Both the position numbers and the translations under genes were made by a program. Below, piece by piece: positions 10,261-25,693 of a stretch of DNA of 25,693 nucleotides; position 1 is the stretch's first letter, and each line of letters opens with the position of its first letter. The notes below the pieces were generated by a model that saw nothing but the letters and a program-made list of their open reading frames with translations, had not been told where the DNA came from and did not search any database. The DNA comes from a virus. The stretch is from positions 1 to 25,693 of IMG/VR virus record IMGVR_UViG_3300010885_020865, one strand, 5' to 3'.

Positions 10261-10692
10261 TTAACCGTTTAATTTCTTTATGTGGGAGCCATGGACACGG
10301 ACAGAGATTTGTCCGTTGTAGTATTCTTGTGATTCTAGCACTCGGTGTGTAAATTGTTCTCTTGCTTCGATATAACTACATTCGGCTTTGGAGCGACAGT
10401 AGTACATGATTTCTCTTGTAAACTGTTCTGCGCCCAGAGCCGCAACATCTTTATTCAATTCATCGTTTGAGCCATAATATGTTTGCCAGTCGCTGTCTAT
10501 TTTGCTTCTGATCTTCTTTTTCTTTTTTGTGCCGTTTTTTAGTTTTACTACTTTGTATGTGGTTTTTGCGAATTTCGCTAGTTTTTTACCTATGTATTTG
10601 CGCCCTGATACACGATTCGTGATGAGATAGACGAAGCCTACACAATCTTCGGGAAGTTCCTGAATCGGGGAGCCTTGATACGTCCATGTCAT
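10261..10692 (-). CDS. GIY-YIG family endonuclease
   Basis: A 143-residue protein with the GIY-YIG fold signature in variant form: GFVYLI at 19-24 and KYIGK at 32-36, then a conserved Glu helix (ECSYIEAREQF, 104-114) and the terminal Asn motif (EYYNGQI, Asn126). An insert of six near-consecutive Lys/Arg (about 56-62, KKKKKIR) suggests DNA contact. Similar single-domain nucleases occur in many T4-like phages; some are homing enzymes, others may be repair or host-DNA nucleases. No separate DNA-binding domain is visible. It is the last gene of the gp55-gp47-gp46 operon, 40 bases after the radical SAM gene. Confidence 0.8.
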   Translation of the reverse strand: MTWTYQGSPIQELPEDCVGFVYLITNRVSGRKYIGKKLAKFAKTTYKVVKLKNGTKKKKKIRSKIDSDWQTYYGSNDELNKDVAALGAEQFTREIMYYCRSKAECSYIEAREQFTHRVLESQEYYNGQISVRVHGSHIKKLNG

Positions 10693-10732: not shown

Positions 10733-11596
10733 TTAAAATTCTGTTACACGTTGCCACTGTGTAGCAAAATTGGTAACCAAATTGGTTGAACTACAGATTT
10801 CTGCACAGGTTTTGTGCGGATGGTCTGTGGCCCAGCTGGCTTGAACCTGATCAAAATCTGCTGTTGGGTCAGCCTCACCTAGCCAACAACAGGGACTGAT
10901 CTGGCCCTTTGCACTCAAAAACAATCCTTTATCGGCCAAGGCCTGACATTGGATTGCGCCTTGCGCTACAGGACGATGCCATGTGACTGGATGTTCTGTA
11001 CCGCCTAAAAAATTTCGTTTACTGACCTTGGCTCTAAACCACTTGAATCCCATGTCTCGGGCCAGTTGTTCACAAGCGTCAACTTGATGTTCGTTGTGCC
11101 GAAACACCAGCATGTCCCAGTGTGCTGAGCCACCGGCACGAATAAAAGTTTCTGCATTTTGCATCACACGACTCCAGTTAACACCACGACGATATATGTG
11201 ATTGGTGTCTTCAAGTCCGTCGATGCTGAACACCACATAGTCCTGGGGTTTGTGTAACACATTGGCCAAATTGGCCCACCAATAACTGCCCTGTAAGCCA
11301 CCATTGGTATTCATGCCCAACACCGTGCTACTGTTGATGGATCTAACATAACTGAATATGGACTTTGATACTTCGTTTGCTGCCGGATCACCGTAGTTAC
11401 CGCACATGAACAACTTGTCCAATCGATATATCAGTCGCTCGGGCACAGTCTGTTGAAAACTTTGCAGGCTGTGTGAGTTATGTACTCGCTTGTCAAAGTT
11501 CACGTCGGTTTCACGAGCACAAGCCGGACATGAGGCCTGACACACGTCAGTAGACTCAACATGTAATACTCTGGCAGTTTCAAGCAATTTCAACAT
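10733..11596 (-). CDS. Radical SAM enzyme A with Cys-rich C-terminus
   Basis: A 287-residue protein with the radical SAM [4Fe-4S] motif CX3CX2C (C19, C23, C26; CQASCPAC), a MCGNYGDP loop (64-71) in the position of the family's Gly-rich SAM-binding region, and FSIDGLEDT (123-131). The C-terminus carries C217-X18-CC(236,237)-X26-C264-X3-C268, a SPASM/Twitch-like auxiliary cluster domain found in enzymes that modify peptides or proteins. It is a paralogue of the gene at 13365-14240: same Cys spacing and shared WW, DGLxDTxxxYRxG and HNEHQ motifs. Its start overlaps the gp46 stop by 17 bases, so translation is coupled. Substrate unknown. Confidence 0.85.
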   Translation of the reverse strand: MLKLLETARVLHVESTDVCQASCPACARETDVNFDKRVHNSHSLQSFQQTVPERLIYRLDKLFMCGNYGDPAANEVSKSIFSYVRSINSSTVLGMNTNGGLQGSYWWANLANVLHKPQDYVVFSIDGLEDTNHIYRRGVNWSRVMQNAETFIRAGGSAHWDMLVFRHNEHQVDACEQLARDMGFKWFRAKVSKRNFLGGTEHPVTWHRPVAQGAIQCQALADKGLFLSAKGQISPCCWLGEADPTADFDQVQASWATDHPHKTCAEICSSTNLVTNFATQWQRVTEF

Positions 11597-13349
11597 CGGT
11601 ATTGTAAGTTGTAAATCCGTTTTCTTTCACCACATGGAGTGTGTTGTTTACACGTCCAGCCAGTTCATCCTTGTGGCTCACTAGCCAAATGCTCTTGTTG
11701 GATTCACGTGCCATCTTCTTTAAGATAGCCAAACTGTTTTCAACTCCCGAACTGTCCATGCCCGAGTCCACAAGTTCGTCGATAAACAACAAGTTAATGG
11801 GTTGATATAGACTTTCCCACACATCGCGGAACGCCCATGACAAACTCAATATGAGCCTATTACGTTCACCACGACTCAAGTTGTCAAAGTCCAGATCCCG
11901 GCCCAGTTCACTGATGGCCACAGTCAAGTCGTTGTTGAATTTAACAGTATGCGGCAAGCCAATACGATCCAAATATTGTCCTAGTCGTGCGTTCAAGTAC
12001 GATAAGTTCTGATCAATGATGCGTTTACGAATAAAACTATCTTTGTTGGTCAACAGTTTTAACAAGAAATCTTGGTGTTCCTTAAGATTGGCCAGGTCAT
12101 TCATGACCACATAATCAATTTCTTCCAAGGCCTGTTCTTGCATTTCTTGGATTTGTTCCACATACGGATCTGCTTCGGCTTCTTTGGCAGTCAGTTGTGC
12201 CAACACAGCACCCATACTACTACGATGTTCAAATGCATCTGATTCGTTATCGTAAAATACCTGCGGTGGAGTTCCCAACTCACCCAATAATTGAAGTGCA
12301 TCGGTGTGTTCTATCCACTGTGTGTTTGTTGCCAGTGCTTGTAATGCGGCTTCCTGTAGTGCCTGGCGTTTTTCCTCTAGCAAGGTTTCTTGTTTGTCAT
12401 CGTGGAATGCTTGTCCACAACTATGACAAGTGTGATTTTCTAAACTGGCAATATCGGCTCGGAGCTTGTCTATGGTTTTCTGCTCTCTAGCCTCGTCTAG
12501 TTCACAACGCCGGATCCAATTGGTTAATTCTTTAATCTGTTTTGATTTTTCATTATACACAGTAAGTGCATGATGTGCAGATAATTCGGCTTCGATATCT
12601 ATCTTGGCCAGTTGATCGTAAGCGGCCTGCAATGCTGCCACATCCTCAGATTTTTTTCTATTCCATATTGTTTGACGTCTAAGCAGTGCGTCAATTTGAT
12701 CTTGTATGCGTCGATTAGCATCACCCACTGCTTTGATACGGAATTCTTCTTGTGTAATTGCGTCTTTGGTGGCTTTGCTTAACTCTTTGAGTCGCTCGGC
12801 TTTTTCACTTAATAGGGTAATGCCCAACAACTGTTCAATAATAGCACGTTGATCGTTGGCCTTCAATGCCAAAAACGGTTCAGTATAGGTGTTAAGTGCC
12901 ACAATGTGTTTGAACATGTCATGGCTCATGCCCAACATGCGCTCAATATCGGCCTGTGTTTCTCTTGAATCGCCTTGTGCATCGTCTGTGATTTCACGTT
13001 CGGTGCCCGACACAAAAAACTTCATTGTGTTGGGTTTACGACCACGTTCAATTCTATAGTCGGTGCCGTCTTTTTCAAAGTCGATAGTGACCAACATGTT
13101 TTTACCGTTGGTCTTGTTGATCAAGTTGTCTTTCTTGATGTTGGTTAGAGCGTTGCCGTAAAGCGCATAAGATAACGCATTTATGATCGTGGTCTTGCCA
13201 GTGCCGTTACGAGCTCCTGAGTCGTCGCCCCCAAGATCCAAGTTCTCGCCCAGCACCAAGGTCAAGTCCCTGCGATTAAAGTTAACAGCCTGTGTAGAGT
13301 TACCCACACTCATAAAATTCTTTACCGCGATATCTTTAATTTTAAACAT
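11580..13349 (-). CDS. 46: Recombination nuclease subunit, gp46 (Rad50/SbcC-like)
   Basis: A 589-residue ABC-type ATPase that with gp47 resects DNA ends for recombination-dependent replication and host DNA breakdown. Visible in order: Walker A GARNGTGKTT (45-54, Lys52), coiled coil from about 180, zinc hook CHSC (C308, C311), second coiled coil to about 430, ABC signature LSRGER (491-496), Walker B LLFIDE (520-525) and switch His559 in VSHKDE. Length is near T4 gp46 (560). It is flanked on both sides by radical SAM genes, which separates it from gp47. In T4 the two subunit genes are close neighbours. Gap to the upstream gene is 15 bases; no clear Shine-Dalgarno. Confidence 0.96.
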   Translation of the reverse strand: MFKIKDIAVKNFMSVGNSTQAVNFNRRDLTLVLGENLDLGGDDSGARNGTGKTTIINALSYALYGNALTNIKKDNLINKTNGKNMLVTIDFEKDGTDYRIERGRKPNTMKFFVSGTEREITDDAQGDSRETQADIERMLGMSHDMFKHIVALNTYTEPFLALKANDQRAIIEQLLGITLLSEKAERLKELSKATKDAITQEEFRIKAVGDANRRIQDQIDALLRRQTIWNRKKSEDVAALQAAYDQLAKIDIEAELSAHHALTVYNEKSKQIKELTNWIRRCELDEAREQKTIDKLRADIASLENHTCHSCGQAFHDDKQETLLEEKRQALQEAALQALATNTQWIEHTDALQLLGELGTPPQVFYDNESDAFEHRSSMGAVLAQLTAKEAEADPYVEQIQEMQEQALEEIDYVVMNDLANLKEHQDFLLKLLTNKDSFIRKRIIDQNLSYLNARLGQYLDRIGLPHTVKFNNDLTVAISELGRDLDFDNLSRGERNRLILSLSWAFRDVWESLYQPINLLFIDELVDSGMDSSGVENSLAILKKMARESNKSIWLVSHKDELAGRVNNTLHVVKENGFTTYNTDVEIA

Positions 13350-13364
13350 ATTTTGTATTGTAAC

Positions 13365-14240
13365 TTATTGTTCCGTGGTGCCGCAATGGTTTTTACATAC
13401 TTGTGGCGCCAAATTTTGGTTAGCCAATTTGGTTGGTATATCCATGAGCTTGTCAATATCATTGTCTGCGTGTGCCTGATTAAAGAAACAACATACATTT
13501 AGTTTGCCACTGGCATTCAAGTACATGCTGGGCAATCGTAGATGCATACAGTTCTCTTCGTCAACGCGATGTTTAACAAAGGTCAAGGGATTCATTTTTT
13601 GATCCATACTCCACGGTTGAATTTCGTATGGGTCTCCTGTTACATAATCACGAGCATTGAAATTTGATCTAACACTTCGAACCAATTCAAATCGTTTAAA
13701 CTTTAATTCTTGACTTAACTTTATGCAGTCTTTGATTTGATGCTCGTTGTGCGCCCAGGGAATGAATTGCCAAACAGCAGTACCACCGGCACTAATAAAT
13801 GTTGTTGCATTTTTGATAATTTTATCAAAGTCAGTACCTTGTCGGTACATGCTGTGCGTATCTGCCAACCCATCTAAACAAAACCAAACTTCGTGACTGT
13901 GGCCTTTTAGCAGATTGGCAAACTGTGTCCACCATACTATGTCTCTAAGACTACCGTTGGTGCGTATAAGAATTTTTTTAGAATACTGTTTGGCCAAATC
14001 AATAAGGGATTTTATATTGTGTGCCGCCACTGCATCGCCAAACGTGCCACAAAAATCCACAGTTTCCAAATTGGGAAACATACGCAGAACGTCTTCAAAC
14101 CGCTCATTGTTTAAATCCTCAATGACAAGCCCATCAGCCAGCTCATAGCCGTTTTTATTTCTACTACAGCCCGGGCACCATGCATTGCATTTACTGGTAG
14201 CCTCAACTTGTAGCCATTTGACTGTGGCTGGGTCAATCAT
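13365..14240 (-). CDS. Radical SAM enzyme B with Cys-rich C-terminus
   Basis: A 291-residue protein with CX3CX2C at C18, C22, C25 (CNAWCPGC), FCGTFGDA (63-70) in the position of the Gly-rich SAM-binding region, and CLDGLADT (121-128). Its C-terminal cysteines C231-X18-CC(250,251)-X30-C282-X3-C286 mirror those of the paralogue at 10733-11596, so both should bind an auxiliary Fe-S cluster. The start codon overlaps the gp47 stop by four bases (ATGA), a sign of coupled translation. Because both paralogues keep every cluster cysteine, both should be active; they may act as a pair or on two substrates. No precursor peptide is obvious nearby. Substrate unknown. Confidence 0.85.
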   Translation of the reverse strand: MIDPATVKWLQVEATSKCNAWCPGCSRNKNGYELADGLVIEDLNNERFEDVLRMFPNLETVDFCGTFGDAVAAHNIKSLIDLAKQYSKKILIRTNGSLRDIVWWTQFANLLKGHSHEVWFCLDGLADTHSMYRQGTDFDKIIKNATTFISAGGTAVWQFIPWAHNEHQIKDCIKLSQELKFKRFELVRSVRSNFNARDYVTGDPYEIQPWSMDQKMNPLTFVKHRVDEENCMHLRLPSMYLNASGKLNVCCFFNQAHADNDIDKLMDIPTKLANQNLAPQVCKNHCGTTEQ

Positions 14241-15253
14241 AGATGACGGTAAATGTCCAGTAGCAATGCTCGATTGAATTTGTCACTTTCGATGCTGTTG
14301 AGTTGCCCAGCAACAATTTGATCCACACTTTCAAATGCAATGTTGCCCTGTATTTCGTATTCGGTCAAGTCTGTGACCTTGGCCGGTATCAGTGTGATCT
14401 CACGTAAACGATAAGTATCAATAAATGTCTCTTTGATAAACGTGGCTTCTTCGTAACTGATATCAATATCCAAGTTGACACGACAATGCATACCGGGTTG
14501 CAACATGGCTTCGGTATGATTGATAACATCACTCAAATTAAACACACGATAGCGTGGTTGGTCAGGCCACGCATGATACTCGGGCTCTTTGCCCCATTCG
14601 AGAATGGTCAGGCCACGATCATCGTCGCCGGCATCGGCGTAGTTGTGCGGAAAGCAGTTGCCAATGTATGTGATATTCTTTTGTGTTTGGCGTTTGTGAA
14701 AGTGTCCAGTAAACACATGATCAAAGCCGCCAAAATGTTCTCTACTGACATCGCCATGTTCGGGCATGGCTACCATGGCATTCATGAGATATCCGGGCAG
14801 TTCAAAGTGCCCAAACATGTACTTGCCTGACAACTTGGGTATGCGTTTATGGTCGTCGCCTACAAGCCATGGTGCAATAACCACGTCGCCGCTACTATAC
14901 CAATCATTGCATATCGTAATGTTCGGGAGACGTCGCGCCCATTCAACGCTCTGCACATCGCGCTTGTCGCGATAATAAAGATCGTGATTGCCAGGAATAA
15001 AGAATACTTGACTAAAATTGTCATTCAAATGTTCCAGTGCCCGAAGACTGTAATTAAGTGTTATAATATTTATAGATGCACGGTTATTGTGCCAGTCACC
15101 CAGGAACATTGCGGTTTCGCAACCTTCTTCTCGAGCTTTGGCAGTTACCCATTTAACAAAGTTTAAACAATCGTCATTGTGAAGTTGGCTGTTGCTCTTT
15201 AGTCCAAAATGTATGTCCGTAAAGAGCGCGGCCTTTTTAAAAAGGTTACTCAT
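14237..15253 (-). CDS. 47: Recombination nuclease subunit, gp47 (Mre11/SbcD-like)
   Basis: A 338-residue metallophosphoesterase, partner of gp46. The five phosphoesterase motifs are present: DIH (13-15), GDWH (52-55), GNHD (88-91), GHFE (148-151) and GHFHKRQ (183-189). These ligate two metal ions for 3'-5' exonuclease and endonuclease action. Length equals T4 gp47 (339). It follows gp55 by 43 bases without a clear Shine-Dalgarno and overlaps radical SAM gene B by four bases. Confidence 0.96.
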   Translation of the reverse strand: MSNLFKKAALFTDIHFGLKSNSQLHNDDCLNFVKWVTAKAREEGCETAMFLGDWHNNRASINIITLNYSLRALEHLNDNFSQVFFIPGNHDLYYRDKRDVQSVEWARRLPNITICNDWYSSGDVVIAPWLVGDDHKRIPKLSGKYMFGHFELPGYLMNAMVAMPEHGDVSREHFGGFDHVFTGHFHKRQTQKNITYIGNCFPHNYADAGDDDRGLTILEWGKEPEYHAWPDQPRYRVFNLSDVINHTEAMLQPGMHCRVNLDIDISYEEATFIKETFIDTYRLREITLIPAKVTDLTEYEIQGNIAFESVDQIVAGQLNSIESDKFNRALLLDIYRHL

Positions 15254-16342: not shown

Positions 16343-17356
16343 ATGGGATTATTAGACGGAACACTGAGTAGCGCAGCCAGCTCGGCATTGGGTAGCGCGG
16401 CCAGCGCCATTGGTGCAGATCCAAGCGCGGCACGATTGGCAGTTGCTGGTCTGGTTCCCGGCGGGAGCCTTGGATTCAGCATTGGCGGAGCCAAAGTAAA
16501 TGTCAACCTTAGCGGTGGGCTACCAGACTGGCGTGTTCGTATAGCTCTGGCCGAGTCAGCAAAATATTTTTACAATTCACAGAGTGTGGCTGACCGTGGC
16601 ATAATGAGCCCGCTGTTCAGTAGCCCAACACAAAATGGTGTTATATTTCCATATACTCCACAAGTGCAGGTCACACACACAGCAAACTACAGTCAACAAA
16701 AACTCACACACAGCAACTATCCCGGCTACTTCTATGAAAATAGCGAAGTGGCCGCAATATCAATCAACGGAGAATTCACTGTACAAAATGTCATTGAAGG
16801 GCAGTACCTGCTGGCAGTGATTACATTTTTGCGCTCGGCCACCAAAATGTGGTTTGGTTCTAGCAAGAACAATGCCATGAACGGCTACCCTCCTCCCATG
16901 GTGTTCTTAAGCGGATATGGCGCAAATTATTTGCCAAACGTTCCGTGTGTGGTCACCAGTTTTAGCCATACCATGCCCGGTGACTGTGATTATATTGATG
17001 TACCTGGAGTTATACCCGGCAGCGTTGGCGCCGCCGGAATTGGCGGAGCAGTGACTCAAGGCATTACCGGGGCCATGAACGGTGACGGTAACGCACTAAG
17101 TGGTGCATTGGGCGCAGGCGTAAACAGCGTGTTGGGCTCCACAATGGGTGCCGCAGGCGGTGGTATCAATCAGCTGATTGGACAATTGAGTGGCGGAAAA
17201 TTTGGTGCTGGACCCAGTACACGTATGCCAACAGTGAGTAGTGTATCAGTTACGCTACAACCGATCTACAGTAGACAAGCAGTTAGTAAATTTAACCTTG
17301 ATGATTTTGCCTCAGGCAAGATGGTGGTTGCTGGCAGCAAAGGAGGATTCATCTAA
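16343..17356 (+). CDS. Baseplate tail-tube cap protein, gp48/gp54-like
   Basis: A 337-residue protein expected at the junction of baseplate hub and tail tube. The N-terminal 50 residues are Ala/Ser/Gly-rich. The core, 55-220, contains PDWRVRIALAESAKYFY, IFPYTPQVQVTHTANYS and EFTVQNVIEGQYLLAVITFL, followed by PCVVTSFSHTMPGDCDYI. This matches the tube-like core of T4 gp48 and gp54, which are paralogues. After it come a Gly/Ala-rich linker (222-290) and a short C-terminal segment. Only one such gene is in the window, so whether it replaces gp48 or gp54 cannot be decided. It opens the rightward baseplate operon; its stop overlaps the gp53 start (TAATG). Confidence 0.75.
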   Translation: MGLLDGTLSSAASSALGSAASAIGADPSAARLAVAGLVPGGSLGFSIGGAKVNVNLSGGLPDWRVRIALAESAKYFYNSQSVADRGIMSPLFSSPTQNGVIFPYTPQVQVTHTANYSQQKLTHSNYPGYFYENSEVAAISINGEFTVQNVIEGQYLLAVITFLRSATKMWFGSSKNNAMNGYPPPMVFLSGYGANYLPNVPCVVTSFSHTMPGDCDYIDVPGVIPGSVGAAGIGGAVTQGITGAMNGDGNALSGALGAGVNSVLGSTMGAAGGGINQLIGQLSGGKFGAGPSTRMPTVSSVSVTLQPIYSRQAVSKFNLDDFASGKMVVAGSKGGFI

Positions 17357-17658
17357 TGTCCTCAACATATTCAAAGACAAGCCCGTACTACGGAACACCC
17401 AAGTGGGGCAATTTTTTAGATATCATGGTTGATAGAAAAATCACAGCCAAGGCCAGTGATGTGTTATACAAAATAGACAAGGTGTACGAATATCGTCCTG
17501 ACCTGTTGGCACACGACTTGTATAACGATAGTTCGTTGTGGTGGGTATTTGCACAACGAAATCCCAATACTATACAAGACCCCATACAAGACTTCCGCGC
17601 CGGACGTAGCATTTATATTCCTACTCAAACTCAGCTGGTTCAAGACCTAGGACTTTAA
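17356..17658 (+). CDS. 53: Baseplate wedge protein, gp53 family
   Basis: A 100-residue protein with the gp53 core: YRPDLLAHDLYNDSSLWWVF, then RNPNTIQDPIQDFRAGRSIY, a LysM-like fold that links wedges to the hub in T4. It is shorter than T4 gp53 (196), keeping only the conserved part. A perfect AGGAGG lies nine bases before the ATG, inside the end of the preceding gene, and the start shares one base with that gene's stop codon. Confidence 0.9.
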   Translation: MSSTYSKTSPYYGTPKWGNFLDIMVDRKITAKASDVLYKIDKVYEYRPDLLAHDLYNDSSLWWVFAQRNPNTIQDPIQDFRAGRSIYIPTQTQLVQDLGL

Positions 17659-17661
17659 TCC

Positions 17662-20517
17662 ATGGCAATGGCATTAGAACATCAACTTTCGTTTTATGAA
17701 CAGGGCTTGGCTCTCGATAAAGCTAAACTAGACAAACTTATTAAACAGCGTAATCAAATTGCGGCCCTTGGTGAGCCCACTGACTATTACGACGCAGAAA
17801 TACAATCAGCACAGGAAGACGTTGATGCTGGCATACAGGATGTACTGGACACACAGCAAAAAATATCCGATCAAATGGATGCCGAAAAAGCCGACACTGC
17901 CGAGAACAGCATCAACAATAGCGATACAGATTCTGAATCCGATGACTTAACAGATGATGAAAAATCACAAGTAGATGAAAATTCTGGCGGCGCCGATGAC
18001 CCATATGCCAATATTGGGGACAGTGATTTGTTACCAAAAGCCGAACCTGCACCAGTTGAAGTACAAGAAATTGTCATAACAGCAAAAAGACTGCCCAAAG
18101 AAGAAAAGAAAGAAATTGATCCTGCGCCCACAAGAATTACTAGACCAAATCCGTTACATCAATTTGCAACTTATACCTATAGTATAGCTTTGTTTATATT
18201 ATCAAAAGAAGATATAAATTTGTTAACAACGGATCCTGAAAATTGGATGCCCGGAGCCGCTGGAAATAACTGTTTAATTGCCAGTGGAGGTAAAAACTCT
18301 GGGGCATATAAACGTAATGATCATTTCAAAGAAGACTTCTATTTTGACAACTTGCAAATGACCACAGTGATTGGTCTTAATAGTCGTAGCAAAGCAACTA
18401 ACGCAATTGATCTAAGTTTTAACATAACTGAACCATATGGCATGAGCCTACTAGATCGAATCATGGCCGCCGCAGATCAGATCAAAGCTCCCAACTTCAA
18501 AGCCATGCCATACTTGTTGGAAGTCGATTTCTATGGCTACGACGACAACGGTGCAGTACTCAAACTGTCTGGACAGAGAAAACGTTTTCCTATACAGATT
18601 ATTGAGATCAAAATAAAAATGAATACCAAGGGTGCCGAGTATGCGGTTAAAGCAATACCGTGGAACCACCAGGCTCTGAGTCAAAGTGCATCAACTACCC
18701 CTATCAATATCGAAGTATCGGCCGCAACTGTTGGAGAATTTTTTGCCACCAATGAAGAAGATTTTCAATCGGTTACAAAACAAGATCTTGCAAAAATGAA
18801 TGCGTCTGAATCCAATGGGCGTATAGAAAAAAATACCCAAGAAGTCAAAGAAGAAGCTGATGGCAGCACCAGCCCAACTGCACCAGACAAATCTGCACGT
18901 ACCCCTGAACAAACAAAAACACTCAAAGAGAATCAAGCAATATTGGCCAAGGCATATGCAGTAAAAAGTTTTTGCGGCGGAGTCAATGGTTGGTCCAATG
19001 ATTTACTTGCAAAAAGATTAAGAGCCAAGCCCGACGCAATTTATGTAGAGTTTCACGGGAATGATATAATTCCAGTTGAAAAAATACGTGATGCCAAGAT
19101 AACAGTACCTGCACGTAAGGACATTAGCCGTAGTGCAACAACTGATGCCCCGCCCAAGGCCGCGGCAGCCGCCTCAGCAAACCCCACAAACAAAACATTC
19201 AGCGATGCTGGTGCTTTCCCGGTATCTGCAGGTACCAGTATACCGCACGTGATTGACATGGTGATGCGTAACAGCTCTTACATAACAGATCAAATATCTG
19301 ATCCCAAAGACACCAAGCCTGAAGAAATTGCTCAAAAGTTAGAAAAACCTTTGTATTGGTACAAAATTATTCCCTCTATCAAGACCAATGATTATGATTT
19401 CTCGGTCAACAAGTTTGCGACTCAAATAACATATCATATAGTTCCATATATTGTGTACGACAGCAAACACCCCAATGGACCAGTGCTGGCACCCCAGGGA
19501 TCAGTCAAAGAATATTCATATTCTTATACTGGTAAAAATATAGACATACTTGATTTACAAATTGATTTTGACACAATGTTCTATACTGCGGTTACTGCAG
19601 GATCGGCCAAGTGGCAAGCCGATCAATTGCAAAAAGCAAAAGAACAATTGGATTCCGCACAGAATGCCGCAAAGTCCAGTAGTGATTCTGCAAGAGAATT
19701 GGTTAATAGACAGTTGCGATTGGTATCTTCGCAACCGCAACAGCAAGGTCTAGCTGGCCAACAGGGCTCTGCCGAACAGGTGTTGGCCGGAGATATACAA
19801 AAGAGTCAATACAGTAACAGTCGTGGCGACATGTTGAATCTAAAGTTAAAAATTGTGGGAGATCCCGAACTAATCAAACAGGATGACATTTATACCAATC
19901 CTGCACAAGGTGGCTATGCTGAACAAATGGCCAATGACATCATGCCACAGAACGGTAGCATACCCATGGACGACGGTGAAGTTGTTGCACAGGTCAATTT
20001 CCGTACCATTGTAGACATGGACGAAACTACTGGATTACCAAGACAGGGTGTAATGGCCGACAGTAGTGTATTCTCTGGAAAATACCGTATGCTAACAGTA
20101 TCAAACGTATTTCAAAATGGAAAGTTTGAACAGACAGTTGACATGGTGCGAGTACCAGAACCACCACCCAAGAAAACCGAAAAAACTCCGCCGACCAAAG
20201 AAGAAACAAACAGCGACACAGATCAAGGGCACGGGTCAAGAAGCGTTGAATCAGGCACAGCCGGTGATGACCTGTCATCGTTCTATGACTATGGAGAACC
20301 GGCAGCAGAGGAAAATCCAGCACCGGTATTCCCGCCCGAAGACTCACAAGACGGCATCACCGACGAGCCGGAACAAAATCAACAAGAACAAGATTTAGAA
20401 ACAGTTGATGAAGATGCAGACGAAGTCACAATTGATGACTGGTATGACTCAGGCGAATCGCCTGCATTAACACCTGCACAGACTGATGTAATCAATATCG
20501 ATGAAAATTTTGCATAA
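17662..20517 (+). CDS. Large baseplate hub-like protein (gp27-like role)
   Basis: A 951-residue protein between gp53 and the gp5-like gene. Residues 1-80 are coiled coil, 80-130 acidic linker, 165-335 a first folded domain (TYTYSIALFILSKEDINLL; PYLLEVDFYGYDDNG; IQIIEIKIKMNTKGAEYAVKAIPW split by charged residues), 370-430 and 485-515 low-complexity linkers, 560-835 a second folded domain with LNLKLKIVGDPELIKQDDIY and YRMLTVSNVFQNGKFEQTVD, patterns typical of hub proteins, and 836-951 a very acidic tail. T4 gp27 (391) is the trimeric hub partner of gp5; adjacency to gp5 and the absence of another gp27 candidate support that role, but similarity is too weak for a symbol. ATG at 17662 or at 17668 (AGGA at 17649). 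Confidence 0.6.
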   Translation: MAMALEHQLSFYEQGLALDKAKLDKLIKQRNQIAALGEPTDYYDAEIQSAQEDVDAGIQDVLDTQQKISDQMDAEKADTAENSINNSDTDSESDDLTDDEKSQVDENSGGADDPYANIGDSDLLPKAEPAPVEVQEIVITAKRLPKEEKKEIDPAPTRITRPNPLHQFATYTYSIALFILSKEDINLLTTDPENWMPGAAGNNCLIASGGKNSGAYKRNDHFKEDFYFDNLQMTTVIGLNSRSKATNAIDLSFNITEPYGMSLLDRIMAAADQIKAPNFKAMPYLLEVDFYGYDDNGAVLKLSGQRKRFPIQIIEIKIKMNTKGAEYAVKAIPWNHQALSQSASTTPINIEVSAATVGEFFATNEEDFQSVTKQDLAKMNASESNGRIEKNTQEVKEEADGSTSPTAPDKSARTPEQTKTLKENQAILAKAYAVKSFCGGVNGWSNDLLAKRLRAKPDAIYVEFHGNDIIPVEKIRDAKITVPARKDISRSATTDAPPKAAAAASANPTNKTFSDAGAFPVSAGTSIPHVIDMVMRNSSYITDQISDPKDTKPEEIAQKLEKPLYWYKIIPSIKTNDYDFSVNKFATQITYHIVPYIVYDSKHPNGPVLAPQGSVKEYSYSYTGKNIDILDLQIDFDTMFYTAVTAGSAKWQADQLQKAKEQLDSAQNAAKSSSDSARELVNRQLRLVSSQPQQQGLAGQQGSAEQVLAGDIQKSQYSNSRGDMLNLKLKIVGDPELIKQDDIYTNPAQGGYAEQMANDIMPQNGSIPMDDGEVVAQVNFRTIVDMDETTGLPRQGVMADSSVFSGKYRMLTVSNVFQNGKFEQTVDMVRVPEPPPKKTEKTPPTKEETNSDTDQGHGSRSVESGTAGDDLSSFYDYGEPAAEENPAPVFPPEDSQDGITDEPEQNQQEQDLETVDEDADEVTIDDWYDSGESPALTPAQTDVINIDENFA

Positions 20518-20526
20518 GGAATTTCA

Positions 20527-23500
20527 ATGGCAACCGACAATAGACAAGGCGTAAAATTACCAGACTGGGCAGACCAGAACAAAGCCTACGGAATGAAATT
20601 CACTCCCGCTACTCAAAGCGGGATAGTCAAGCAAAACGTTGACCCGTTGCGTATGGGGCGACTACAGGTATGGATCCCAGATTTTGGTGGTGCAGAAGAT
20701 GATGATAACAATTGGAAGTGGGTCACTTATGCCAGTCCATTTTACGGGGCCACATACAACCCCAATAGGAACACGGACAACACTGACCAACAGTCGGAAC
20801 ACACATACGGAATGTGGCTGGTACCACCCGACATAGGTAACACAGTACTATGTACATTTGTTAACGGCGACCCTGGGCGCGGATATTGGTTTGCAGTTGC
20901 CACAGATAAAAGATTAAGCCATAATATGGTTCCCGGGGTTTCATCTAGATTTGCCGACAGGACCGACAAGTCCAGTGCCGGTGGGCTGGTAGAAGCCAGT
21001 TTGTCAAGAGTAGATGCCAAGTCGTATTTGCCACTGAGTGAGTTTAACGAAAGTCGTGAAAGCAATATTAGCGGCACATTTCCGGCAAATAAATTGCCAG
21101 TACATCAATATCAAGCTGAAATCATAATCAATCAAGGACTTGATACCGATCCCATCCGCGGGGCAACCACATCGAGCAGTTTACGTGAAGCACCTAGTAG
21201 TGTATTTGGTTTTAGCACACCTGGGCGACCATCAGAAGAAAACAGTGTGACTCCAACTATACGTCGTGGTGGACACAGTTTTGTCATGGACGATGGCGCC
21301 AGTGACGGAACTGACCAGGCCATTAGAATACGCAGTGCCGGTGGACATCAGATCTTGATGAACGACAAAGAACAAGTTCTTTACATTGCAAACTCGGCTG
21401 GCACCTCCTGGTTGGAATTTGACAGTGGCGGTGGAATCCAAATGTACAGCACAAACGGGTTCGCACTACGCACACAGGGCGCAATGAATTTGCATAGTGA
21501 TGCAACAGTTAATATTCAAGGTGCCTCGGTCAATATTAAATCTATTGGTGGAATGAAAATTGCCACACAAACACTAGATGTGCGTAGCAGTGGCAACATG
21601 AATTTGTTTGGAGCACGAGTAGGTATTGGTTCAGGTGGATCAACTTCGTTGACCAGTGGTGGTACTGTGGGTGTGGGTGCCAATGGCACACTATTATTGC
21701 AAGGCGCCGCCATAAAGTTAAATGACGGAGATGTTGCACAGATTACTGATCCGGGCGATATACCCAGTAACCTACATCAAGATGCAAACAAAACTGAAAT
21801 TGGATTATGGGAAGCGGCGGCCGGTACCCTGACCAGTATTGTGTCCAAAGCACCGTCACACGAGCCTTACAATAGAACTTCACCAGTGGTTCCGGCTTCT
21901 GATGTTTCGTTAACCGCGGTCAAAAACGTGTGTACGGATCAAGCAGGTCCAACAACACCAGCCGGGCAAGTGAGTCCAGGTGGTGCAGGCCCATTTGGCG
22001 ACTATATTGCCAGCAACGAAAGTGGTACAGCCGGATACAATGCATTTAATCGTGGATCAAGCCCGCCAGCTGGTACCGGTAGCCCACGTGAATCGCTCAA
22101 TCTCGAAAACATGACCATCGACACAATATTTGCAATGATGGCAAACACAGATCCAAAACAACGACTATTTGCAGTTGGTAGATATCAAGTTATTCCTGAC
22201 ACACTCAAAGCCGCTTGCAAGAAATTAAATGTTCCCACAACTGCTAAATTTACCCGAGACATACAAGACAACATCTTTATCAACTACCTGTGCAAATCTA
22301 AACAGCCCAAGATTGGTACATATCTAAACGGCAATGATGTCAATAACGAAGCGGCATTATTAAATGCCTGTAGTGCCACAGCCGGCGAATGGGCCAGTGT
22401 AGAAGACCCACAACTAACACCTCCACGAGGTCGTTACGACGGGCAAGGCACCAACAAGGCGCATGGCAAGACCGCGGCCACCAAGGCAGCACTCAAGGCA
22501 CAGTGGGATTTCTTACATAAACAAGGTGGCGGTGTTGTAACAACTGGAAGCGGTGCAGTATTAACTGATGGATCGGGCAACGCTGTTAAATCTGGATCAG
22601 GTACCGAAATTGAAGCAGGCATACAAGCGGCATCGGGACAAAATGTCACCAAGCAGGCCCCTGCAGAACTCATGAGAAGAAGCAATGCACCCAATACCGG
22701 CGCCATGGTTGACGCAATTGGCACATATGGTAAAGATGGCTATATTGCCGGATTTATTGCACCGCAAGTGACAGCATTGTTGACACAAATTGCCTACAGC
22801 GAAAGCGACTTTTCGTCCAGTTACAATGGCGGAGAAAACATTGGTCGCTACGGAGTAAATGCTGTGGTATTGGCCGAGTATGGTTATATAAAACCCGACT
22901 ACTTGACAAAATATCAAACACGAGCAATCGTTGACGCCAATGCATGGACCGGCAAAGACAATGTTGCCAGTATCAAGGACTTTTTGAATTCTGTAGCGGC
23001 ACAAGATTCGGTCATGGTCAGCTTTGTTAAAGATGCATACAAAGCATTGAGCAAATCTAGACCCACTGGTATCAAGAGCGGAGATAGCATCTGTACCATA
23101 GCCGGTATGATATACGTAACATACCTGTTTAGAAATGCAGTTGCTAAAAATGTTGGCAGTAATATAGATGCCATGGTAGAAGCAGCCGCTATCTGGAGAA
23201 AGAGCAACAGTGGTGCCGCACATCACGGAAAAACCCCAATTGAAGTATACAACCAAGCTCGCTACGCAATTGATGTACTGAGTGTAACCGGCATAGGACG
23301 CAGTGAGACTGCCCCTAGTACAACCGGAATCGCCCCAGACGATGTATTGGCGTTTGGTACCGGAAATGCCAGCAAAGAAAATTTTGCATTGTTATCTACT
23401 AGTTTCAAGAATGCATTACTAACAGCGGCACAGGCATATAAAACAGTATCCGGCAAAAAAATCACAGTGGTCAGTTTATACCGCCCAGACTCAGAACAAG

Positions 23501-23784
23501 AGCGTCTGTACAGCACTTGGAAAGCCGCAGGTGGTGGCCCCGGTAAACCCACAGCCGGGGGCATAACAACACCTGCACTACCGGTCAGCATGGGCGGCAA
23601 ACTTAATGCACACGGATCAGGTGTGGCCATTGACTGCGGACAACAAGCGGCCGAGGTTGCTAAAACCATTGACTTGTCCAAATACGGTCTACGTTGGGGC
23701 GGCACATTCATTACGCCGGATCCAGTGCATATTCAAATGGCCAGCTGGCTACCCAGCGGAAAATCCCCGGCAAACGCTGAATAA
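20527..23784 (+). CDS. 5: Needle/hub lysozyme gp5-like, three cell-wall domains
   Basis: A 1085-residue cell-puncturing protein at the tip of the tail. Domains: OB-fold about 30-130 (GRLQVWIPDF; MWLVPPDIGNTVLCTFVNGD; GYWFAVATD), as in T4 gp5 and VgrG; beta-helix needle about 245-400 with short repeats (GGIQMYS, GAMNLHSDATVNI, GGMKIAT); lysozyme/transglycosylase-like domain 490-620 (NESG with Glu498; FAVGRYQVIPDTL); a second lysozyme-like domain 735-915 (YSESDFS with Glu759; GRYGVNAV); and an M15-type zinc peptidase 945-1075 (SLYRPDSEQ; His1029 and Asp1036 in HGSGVAID; His1068 in DPVHIQM). T4 gp5 (575) has one lysozyme placed before the needle; here all enzymes follow it. AAGGA lies six bases before the ATG. 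Confidence 0.9.
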   Translation: MATDNRQGVKLPDWADQNKAYGMKFTPATQSGIVKQNVDPLRMGRLQVWIPDFGGAEDDDNNWKWVTYASPFYGATYNPNRNTDNTDQQSEHTYGMWLVPPDIGNTVLCTFVNGDPGRGYWFAVATDKRLSHNMVPGVSSRFADRTDKSSAGGLVEASLSRVDAKSYLPLSEFNESRESNISGTFPANKLPVHQYQAEIIINQGLDTDPIRGATTSSSLREAPSSVFGFSTPGRPSEENSVTPTIRRGGHSFVMDDGASDGTDQAIRIRSAGGHQILMNDKEQVLYIANSAGTSWLEFDSGGGIQMYSTNGFALRTQGAMNLHSDATVNIQGASVNIKSIGGMKIATQTLDVRSSGNMNLFGARVGIGSGGSTSLTSGGTVGVGANGTLLLQGAAIKLNDGDVAQITDPGDIPSNLHQDANKTEIGLWEAAAGTLTSIVSKAPSHEPYNRTSPVVPASDVSLTAVKNVCTDQAGPTTPAGQVSPGGAGPFGDYIASNESGTAGYNAFNRGSSPPAGTGSPRESLNLENMTIDTIFAMMANTDPKQRLFAVGRYQVIPDTLKAACKKLNVPTTAKFTRDIQDNIFINYLCKSKQPKIGTYLNGNDVNNEAALLNACSATAGEWASVEDPQLTPPRGRYDGQGTNKAHGKTAATKAALKAQWDFLHKQGGGVVTTGSGAVLTDGSGNAVKSGSGTEIEAGIQAASGQNVTKQAPAELMRRSNAPNTGAMVDAIGTYGKDGYIAGFIAPQVTALLTQIAYSESDFSSSYNGGENIGRYGVNAVVLAEYGYIKPDYLTKYQTRAIVDANAWTGKDNVASIKDFLNSVAAQDSVMVSFVKDAYKALSKSRPTGIKSGDSICTIAGMIYVTYLFRNAVAKNVGSNIDAMVEAAAIWRKSNSGAAHHGKTPIEVYNQARYAIDVLSVTGIGRSETAPSTTGIAPDDVLAFGTGNASKENFALLSTSFKNALLTAAQAYKTVSGKKITVVSLYRPDSEQERLYSTWKAAGGGPGKPTAGGITTPALPVSMGGKLNAHGSGVAIDCGQQAAEVAKTIDLSKYGLRWGGTFITPDPVHIQMASWLPSGKSPANAE

Positions 23785-23792: not shown

Positions 23793-24167
23793 ATGAGTAC
23801 ATATCGCGGTTTTAGCACTATCAACGCTGCCAAACGTTTTAAAATTACCGATGCCGATCTAATCAAACAGGATCTGATCAATAATTTTAATATACGCAAA
23901 GGTGAAAAACTCATGCAACCAAATTTTGGTACAATTATCTGGGGCCTGCTGTTTGAGCCGTTGACAAACGATTTAAAAAATGCAGTAGTTGCCGATATAA
24001 CACAAATTATAAATTATGACCCTCGAGTCAATGTCAATAACGTTGATGTTATACAGCAAGAGCATGGATTACAAATTTTGGTATCCTTGACATATTCAAA
24101 TACAAACCAATCAGATACGCTGTTTTTAAATTTCAACGGCAACTCGCAAAAACTCACCTACGCATAA
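23793..24167 (+). CDS. 25: Baseplate wedge protein, gp25 family
   Basis: A 124-residue protein of the GPW/gp25 family, the sheath-initiating wedge component conserved in contractile tails. The hallmark region is DLINNFNIRKGEKLMQPNFG followed by TIIWGLLFEP (residues 27-56), and the length is close to T4 gp25 (132). It lies eight bases after gp5 and 47 bases before gp6; the gp25-gp6 adjacency is widespread among contractile tails. No strong Shine-Dalgarno. Confidence 0.95.
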   Translation: MSTYRGFSTINAAKRFKITDADLIKQDLINNFNIRKGEKLMQPNFGTIIWGLLFEPLTNDLKNAVVADITQIINYDPRVNVNNVDVIQQEHGLQILVSLTYSNTNQSDTLFLNFNGNSQKLTYA

Positions 24168-24214: not shown

Positions 24215-25693
24215 ATGGCTTTAACCACTCGTCAAACTAGTCTTTTGATCCAGCAGGACTGGACAAAAATTTATCAGACTTTCCAGTCGGCTGATTTTAC
24301 CAGCTACGATTTTGAAACCTTACGCAAGACCATGATCGACTACTTGCGTACAAATTACCCCGAAGATTTTAACGATTTCACTGACTCAAGTGAATACATT
24401 GCCCTGATTGATCTTATTGCATTCATGGGGCAGAGCATTGCCTTCCGTAGCGATTTAAATGCTCGCGAAAACTTTATTGACACAGCACAGCGTCAGGACA
24501 GCGTTTTTAAATTAAGTCGTCTAGTGGGCTACAGCCCAAAACGCAATGTTGGTGCCAACGGCTTATTAAAAATCGATAATGTCAGTACCACTGAGACTAT
24601 CTATGACAGCAACGGTACAGATTTGACCAACGTTGTTGTTAATTGGAACGATGTTGGCAATGATAATTGGCAAGAACAAATGAATGCAATTTTAAATGCA
24701 ACATTTGTTAACACACAAGTAGTTGGCAAGCCCGCAAGCCAAACCACAATTAATAATATAGCGACCGACACCTATAGCATCAGCATTGTTCCAGGGCAAA
24801 CTCCAGTTTATAGTTTTACAGCCACAGTGGAAAACAAAACCATGTCGTTTGAGGCAGTAAGCTCGTCAACTACGAATTCAAGCACAATCGTTGAACCACC
24901 GCCTATCCCACGTAGTATTTTTACTATTTTATATCGTAACGATAGCTTGGGAAACGGTAGTAATAACACTGGATTCTTTATTCAATTCAAACAAGGTACA
25001 CTAAACAAGATTGATTTTTCATTGAATGAAAGCATTCCTAATCGTACTGTGGCAATTAATTTTAATAATATTAATAATGACGATACTTGGCTATACGGAC
25101 TTAATTCAAAGAATACCGCATCAACTGCTTGGACAAAAGTTAATGCAGTTTCGGGGGTCAACGTAACATATAACCAAAGTACCAATAGAAACATCTATCA
25201 GGTCAATACTAGAGCCGGCGACCAAGTTGATTTAATATTTGGAGACGGAGTATTTGCCAATATTCCACAAGGTAACCATCGTTTTATCTATCGCCAGAGC
25301 AACGGACTAAACTACAAAATCACCCCTAGTGAAATTACACGAGTAAGTATTCCTATTGCCTACGTTAGTCGCGGTGGCCGTGTTGAGACCTTGACGGTAA
25401 CTGCCAGTTTAAATTATACAGTTTCTAATAGTTCTAGTGCAGAAACCTTAACATCGGTTAGAGCCAATGCACCACAAACATATTATACACAAAATCGAAT
25501 GATCACCGGCGAAGACTATAATACGTTGCCGTTTAGTTTGTTTAATAGTGTAGTTAAAGTTAAAGCAGTGAATCGAACCAGTTCAGGTGTAAGTCGTTTC
25601 CTAGATGTGCTAGACGTGACAGGAAAATACTCTAGTACAAATATTTTCTGCGACGATGGATACTTATATAGAGATAGTGGTGCCGGAGATCAG
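24215..25693 (+). CDS. 6: Baseplate wedge protein, gp6 family (3' end missing)
   Basis: An open frame of 493 codons from ATG 24215 to the window edge without a stop, so the C-terminus is cut off. T4 gp6 is 660 residues and forms the inner ring of the baseplate with gp25 and gp53. Seen here: an N-terminal segment (FETLRKTMIDYLRTNYPEDF; YIALIDLIAFMGQSIAFRSD; FKLSRLVGYSPKRN) typical of gp6, a variable Asn/Thr/Ser-rich middle (about 120-330), then a gpJ-like core with VDLIFGDGVFANIPQG and MITGEDYNTLP. AAGG lies seven bases before the ATG, and a perfect late promoter precedes it. Confidence 0.93.
   Translation, partial: MALTTRQTSLLIQQDWTKIYQTFQSADFTSYDFETLRKTMIDYLRTNYPEDFNDFTDSSEYIALIDLIAFMGQSIAFRSDLNARENFIDTAQRQDSVFKLSRLVGYSPKRNVGANGLLKIDNVSTTETIYDSNGTDLTNVVVNWNDVGNDNWQEQMNAILNATFVNTQVVGKPASQTTINNIATDTYSISIVPGQTPVYSFTATVENKTMSFEAVSSSTTNSSTIVEPPPIPRSIFTILYRNDSLGNGSNNTGFFIQFKQGTLNKIDFSLNESIPNRTVAINFNNINNDDTWLYGLNSKNTASTAWTKVNAVSGVNVTYNQSTNRNIYQVNTRAGDQVDLIFGDGVFANIPQGNHRFIYRQSNGLNYKITPSEITRVSIPIAYVSRGGRVETLTVTASLNYTVSNSSSAETLTSVRANAPQTYYTQNRMITGEDYNTLPFSLFNSVVKVKAVNRTSSGVSRFLDVLDVTGKYSSTNIFCDDGYLYRDSGAGDQ

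Follow-up and report, generated by a model that had tools for sequence, protein, structure and literature searches.

A gp5-like baseplate spike with three predicted wall-enzyme modules beyond the needle in a T4-like, jumbo-type myophage

The spike gene and its baseplate neighbourhood

The stretch of DNA analysed here, referred to as the window, is a 25.7-kb viral fragment (25,693 nucleotides; IMG/VR record IMGVR_UViG_3300010885_020865). On its plus strand, positions 20527-23784 form one uninterrupted open reading frame of 1085 residues, which encodes a gp5-like baseplate spike protein. The PHROG profile phrog_13211, annotated as "baseplate hub subunit and tail lysozyme", covers residues 24-401 (E 3e-23), and the top isolate matches of the spike are the gp5 proteins of Atu_ph07 and of PA5oct-like phages. 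The gene is part of a T4-like baseplate cluster on the same strand, which reads, in order, a gp53-like wedge (17356-17658; phrog_7145, E 3e-29; Pfam Phage_gp53 below cut-off), a virion structural protein of 951 residues immediately 5' of the spike (17662-20517; phrog_11190, E 2e-35), the spike itself, the gp25 wedge immediately 3' of it (23793-24167; Pfam PF04965, 44.6 bits), and the gp6 wedge, which is open at the end of the window (24215-25693; phrog_10646, E 3e-175). Gene order alone suggests a hub role for the 951-residue protein. The genes for gp23, the prohead protease and gp20 lie on the minus strand. For both the spike and gp6, the nearest isolated relatives are jumbo phages, among them Atu_ph07, PA5oct-like Pseudomonas phages, Phosso and Salicola phage SCTP-2. 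The spike belongs to a T4-like, jumbo-type phage. The host with thick or unusual peptidoglycan envisaged in the original prediction found nothing in its support, and a search of genome_contigs for a host-linked relative of the spike returned none.

The minus strand carries a further group of genes between 10261 and 15253. Two radical-SAM-like genes (10733-11596 and 13365-14240) flank an SMC/AAA ATPase gene (11580-13349) and are interleaved with a calcineurin-like phosphoesterase gene (14237-15253), and a gene for a SegE-type GIY-YIG endonuclease (10261-10692) adjoins them.

The spike begins as T4-type gp5 proteins do, with an N-terminal OB fold (residues 31 to about 126, the C-terminal edge being approximate; 20617-20904), matched by Pfam PF04717, Phage_base_V (30.5 bits; cut-off 23.8). 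A predicted needle of beta-helix repeats follows at residues of about 250-402 (21274-21732), which phrog_13211 also covers. When the whole protein was compared with the PDB by phmmer, residues 257-345 gave a weak match to the Anabaena eCIS spike 7b5h (E 0.03) and no other match was obtained; Gp5_trimer_C was absent from the Pfam results for the spike. About 35 residues past the needle repeats stands a conserved motif, TSIVSKAPSHEPY (residues 436-448; 21832-21870), which ends in P-x-HEP[WYF] (FEPC in Paride). Of 56 unique spikes, 50 contain it, and the six without it are four of one type (L099-L102) together with L005 and L055. In a sister clade with no enzyme in the spike gene, the spike mostly stops 3-35 residues past HEP[WYF]; going by this sequence pattern, we take the needle unit to end naturally at the motif and everything past it to be an addition to that unit. 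The motif may also correspond to a needle-tip structure.

Past the needle, the chain continues for about 685 residues and comprises three distinct modules, all of which begin beyond residue 480, the needle ending at about 402. T4 gp5 has its OB fold at residues 1-129, its lysozyme at 174-339 and its beta-helix at 389-575 (PMC4576200), limits that agree with the earlier description of it as carrying a single lysozyme ahead of the needle. The spike of the window has no lysozyme between OB fold and needle; its three modules are C-terminal to the needle in chain order, as had been foreseen.

Three hydrolase folds beyond the needle

From the letters alone, the original prediction had read three cell-wall hydrolases in this C-terminal region, and its reading of the sequence was confirmed: Glu498, the FAVGRYQVIP region, Glu759, GRYGVN, His1029, Asp1036 and His1068 are all in place, and the region holds two glycan-directed folds and one peptide-directed fold. 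The outcome that had been set against it beforehand, a single enzymatic fold, did not occur, since the three folds are distinct. Profile searches against the PDB matched module 1 to lambda lysozyme, gave a weak match for module 3 and nothing credible for module 2; the predicted structures of modules 2 and 3 resemble enzymatic folds, lytic-transglycosylase-like and M15-like, respectively.

Module 1 (residues 483-660; 21973-22506) is a lambda-endolysin-like glycosidase according to its profiles. It matches phrog_30077 (E 8e-25) and phrog_90, an endolysin family (E 4e-9), and a profile built from 34 sequences retrieved lambda lysozyme from the PDB (3d3d/1am7, E 2.5e-5); Glu498 (codon 22018-22020) aligns with the catalytic Glu19 of that enzyme. 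The Glu occupies the same column in 28 of the 34 relatives, and in the other six it belongs to a GEG motif displaced to a neighbouring position, apparently by a gap in the alignment. GRYQ (22177-22188; GRYQVI from residue 551) is retained in nearly all 34. Profile similarity, catalytic Glu and GRYQ together place the module in the lambda-endolysin family; Pfam applied to module 1 alone returned no family. Judged by sequence, it is the best supported glycosidase of the spike, and probably a lytic transglycosylase. A T4-type lysozyme was matched by none of the three modules in the searches made. Relatives of module 1 are also found within tape-measure proteins of the Burkholderia phages BgManors32 and Magia, and as short proteins of 276-296 residues (hits H67 and H77 and loci L140-L149). 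A Gly/Ser-rich linker, GGGVVTTGSGAVLTDGSGNAVKSGSG (residues of about 662-700; 22510-22626), separates module 1 from module 2.

Module 3 (residues 940-1077; 23344-23757) is assigned as an M15-type zinc peptidase mainly on its fold and on residue conservation, because its Pfam scores fall below the cut-off (PF13539 18.8 bits and VanY 17.6, against 25) and the PDB yields no more than a weak profile match. The PHROG profile phrog_2649, an endolysin family, matches it with E 3.7e-9. In the VIA comparison of its model (pLDDT 86.7), the phage endolysins LysB4 (Z 9.1) and Ply500 (Z 8.7) ranked first, followed by VanXY/VanY and other M15 entries, with the related Hedgehog fold lower; Foldseek likewise returned Ply500 (2vo9, E 4.5e-4, probability 1.00). 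His1029 (23611-23613), Asp1036 (23632-23634), Asp1065 (23719-23721) and His1068 (23728-23730) are invariant in 16 relatives, as are Arg986 and Gln991, down to 33% identity. The two His and two Asp residues fit the M15 pattern of zinc ligands, H-x6-D and a further His, with an acidic residue three positions before that last His (D-x-x-H). A tblastn search of isolated phages with the M15 module gave no match. The module is probably an L-Ala-D-Glu or similar stem-peptide endopeptidase, a bond suggested by the closest folds.

Module 2 (residues 720-920; 22684-23286) matches phrog_27932, a baseplate hub/tail lysozyme family (E 2e-10); Pfam applied to it alone gave no family, and its profile search against the PDB gave no credible match, so that structure prediction was needed. 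Its AlphaFold2 model (pLDDT 92.8) has the overall fold of Slt/goose-lysozyme-type lytic transglycosylases. The closest VIA match was Cj0843 (6cf8; Z 11.8, 142 aligned residues, rmsd 3.1), with MltE (Z 10.8), MltC (10.5), Slt70 (10.0) and phiKZ gp144 (8.8) further down, and all 50 matches listed are lytic transglycosylases, goose-type lysozymes or lysozyme-fold chitinases. The Foldseek E values are weak (best 0.19), yet the same families rank first. Glu759 (codon 22801-22803) and Ser760 are residues 57-58 of the model, where they close the first core helix (43-58) as an E-S motif, the position where Slt-type enzymes bear their catalytic Glu. In place of the G-x-x-Q motif, the module has GRYG (22843-22854; GRYGVN from residue 773), without the Gln of the GRYQ in relatives, a detail that the original prediction had missed.

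Recurrence, exchange and the second module

Architectures were surveyed with local profiles over all fetched loci, unique forms being counted. The order needle, module 1, module 2, M15 is found in 11 unique proteins, namely the spike of the window and 10 other metagenomic spikes. Twenty unique proteins have needle and module 2, one of them (L030) with a GH19 domain between; two have needle, module 2 and M15 (L031, and L029 with GH19 between). In 15 sequences of the sister clade, spike and module 2 are two adjacent genes, the module-2 gene directly 3' of the spike. Atu_ph07 and Phosso have needle, module 1 and a trypsin-like domain, and four spikes (L099-L102) have Gp5_OB, module 1 and needle with an M15-like motif at the end, a motif read by eye in a region that had no Pfam match. 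A frameshift or broken gene was considered for the split pairs and rejected, the two adjacent open reading frames being complete in all 15 sequences.

One reading of these data is that the C-terminal modules are endolysin genes joined to the spike by accident or by mis-assembly, and relatives of module 1 and of the M15 module do also stand alone as endolysins or lie in tape-measure proteins. Nevertheless, the fusion is one open reading frame in 11 unique contigs, with the same junctions in independent contigs, and non-synonymous divergence is low in every module and along the whole length (0.085-0.205 per site) against near-saturated synonymous sites, dN/dS being computable for part of the pairs because those sites are saturated in many. 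Recurrence of the whole order in ten other unique proteins, together with this low divergence, indicates that the arrangement is not due to chance; recurrence already contradicts accidental fusion, which we regard as extremely improbable. Computation gives, for a set of related spikes, the order of the modules, their folds, their conserved catalytic residues and their recurrence.

The first position after the needle is swappable. The GH19 domains of L029 and L030 (PF00182, above the Pfam cut-off) occupy the slot that module 1 fills in the window, and L091, which carries module 1, falls within the GH19-bearing rows of the module-2 tree (L030 outside, L028 and L029 inside), which implies that the occupant of slot 1 has been replaced more than once.

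The second position shows a different pattern. Where module 2 is fused to the needle with no other glycosidase, both Glu and Gln are retained (20 of 20). Where it is fused along with module 1 or GH19, as in the clade of the window, Glu is kept in all 15 and Gln in none (G in 9, K in 4, A in 2). Where it is a separate gene, Gln is kept in 15 of 15 and Glu in 2 of 15, with A, S, L, Q, K or H elsewhere; L007 and L009 have kept both Glu and GRYQ, and the genes without Glu but with GRYQ intact are those of L006, L008, L011, L039, L040, L043, L065, L069, L072, L076, L080, L082 and L083. The idea that this tail tip could cut both glycan strands and peptide stems therefore stands as far as hydrolase folds for both are present, but the case for all three modules being active is weakened by the absence of Gln from the window's clade (0/15) and the loss of Glu in the sister clade (13/15).

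It is conceivable, though in our estimate somewhat unlikely, that module 2 is no longer an enzyme, having become a peptidoglycan-binding or structural part once insertion of a second glycosidase (module 1 or GH19) had separated it from the needle, so that the spike would be a two-enzyme one. The clade pattern speaks for this, with both residues intact when module 2 is alone, Gln replaced throughout when a second glycosidase is present and Glu replaced in 13 of 15 members of the split-gene clade, and so does the non-synonymous divergence of module 2, which exceeds that of the other modules in five of the six pairs compared. On the other hand, Slt-family enzymes depend on one catalytic Glu, and the presence of Glu759 in every one of the 15 members of the window's clade speaks for retained catalysis. 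Moreover, in the module-2 tree the Gln-loss group and the split-gene group each lie on one branch, apart from one truncated row in each, so each pattern may reflect one ancestral change followed by drift; the loss of Gln counts as one event, and we claim no statistical link between it and the filling of slot 1. Because Glu759 is unchanged throughout the clade, we keep both readings of module 2, as active or as glycan-holding. Its activity is doubtful, and one of the three spike enzymes may be losing its activity.

Proposed action at the tail tip and known systems

Taken together, we consider it likely that the protein is the gp5 spike of a T4-like, jumbo-type myophage, in which OB fold and needle are followed by three tethered wall-enzyme modules that open the wall on contraction. 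Three chains would each contribute an OB fold and a needle strand and, past the needle-end motif, would carry the three modules strung on flexible linkers. Sheath contraction would drive the needle through the outer membrane and deliver as many as nine enzyme domains to the periplasm, where the tethered modules would open the wall around the needle, module 1 cutting glycan and module 3 stem peptides, and the Slt-like module 2 contributing weaker or altered glycan cleavage, or mainly glycan binding. From the sequence and models we infer the trimer, the position of the modules relative to the needle tip, cleavage, activity, bond specificity and timing.

Alternatively, cleavage during assembly or penetration might detach the enzymes from the needle, leaving them to work as free subunits or as subunits held non-covalently, in the way that T4 gp5 is cut between lysozyme and needle (work cited in PMC4576200). 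In addition to this precedent, a trypsin-like domain occupies the last position in the spikes of Atu_ph07 and Phosso, and the sister clade has module 2 as its own gene directly after the spike, so that covalent linkage is dispensable there. Against this, the fused order is retained in 11 unique proteins, and no cleavage motif was identified in the spike; nothing was found to support the release on penetration raised in the original prediction. We hold cleavage to be unlikely and retain the tethered arrangement.

More tentatively still than the loss of catalysis in module 2, one may picture the protein as a standard OB-needle plug, closed by the conserved end motif, that bears a swappable series of enzymes at its end, in which slot 1 holds a lambda-type lysozyme or GH19, slot 2 the Slt-like module, and slot 3 M15 or nothing, slot 2 having turned from catalyst to glycan-holding part in the window's clade and, separately, in the split-gene clade.

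Enzymes past the needle are less exceptional than had been implied, being found also in Atu_ph07, Phosso, pf16, Cr30 and BUCT-ZZ01. T4 gp5 shares with our spike the OB fold and (here predicted) needle in one chain, an attached wall hydrolase and the type of baseplate gene neighbourhood, but has one lysozyme before the needle rather than three hydrolase folds after it. The spikes of Agrobacterium phage Atu_ph07 (L014:5908-8505) and Sinorhizobium phage Phosso (L016:5908-9042) have OB fold, needle and a module-1 homologue followed by a peptidase-fold domain, which is trypsin-like and not M15, and they are without module 2; in Phosso a very long Gly/Ser linker precedes the trypsin-like domain. The T4-like isolates Cr30, pf16 and Synechococcus phage BUCT-ZZ01 end their spikes in an M15-type motif or Pfam M15_3 (below cut-off), but Cr30 and BUCT-ZZ01 have their glycosidase (Phage_lysozyme2 or GH19) ahead of the needle, and pf16 has none. 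Among uncultured phages, spikes of needle and module 2 (for example L005; BFVD A0A6J5L6V6, 742 aa) have the same OB-needle unit with module 2 past it, but this is their single enzyme, with GRYQ intact in those fetched, and they are without module 1 and M15.

Evolved VgrG proteins of type VI secretion are gp5-like spikes with a C-terminal enzyme extension, from which our spike differs as part of a phage virion with three wall hydrolase folds in series. The hub gp15 of Anabaena myophage A-1(L) has lysozyme, endoglucanase and peptidase domains, of which the endoglucanase and peptidase were shown to lyse host cells (PMC10966104), so that a single baseplate protein can carry more than one working wall enzyme. 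This likeness, which includes a peptidase, is limited by the placing of those enzymes on the hub, the separate spike gp25 having no described enzyme domain (PMC10966104). Together with Cr30, pf16, BUCT-ZZ01 and Deifobo (see below), A-1(L) makes clear that contractile tail tips with more than one wall enzyme are already known; our search of the open-access literature found no described spike with several wall enzymes past the needle, and what is new here is the stacked, partly swappable enzyme set beyond it.

If the proposal holds, wall enzymes can be stacked and exchanged on phage spikes past the needle, much as on enzyme-bearing VgrG spikes, and the relatives (both residues intact in 20, Gln lost in 15, Glu lost in 13 of 15) would form a natural series in which to ask at what point a virion lysozyme ceases to be a catalyst. 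The individual domains of the spike are also candidate peptidoglycan hydrolases for laboratory use.

A last observation concerns the tip itself. A PAAR tip gene was found neither in the window record nor in 13 related records, all of them short, so that absence is not implied. Jumbo-phage PAAR proteins have been described in a survey as standing alone (PMC7824862), whereas in PA5oct-like phage Deifobo (L172:946-1968) and in vB_PpuM-SKa-4 (L173:2976-3983) we observed an M15-like domain joined behind the PAAR tip domain.
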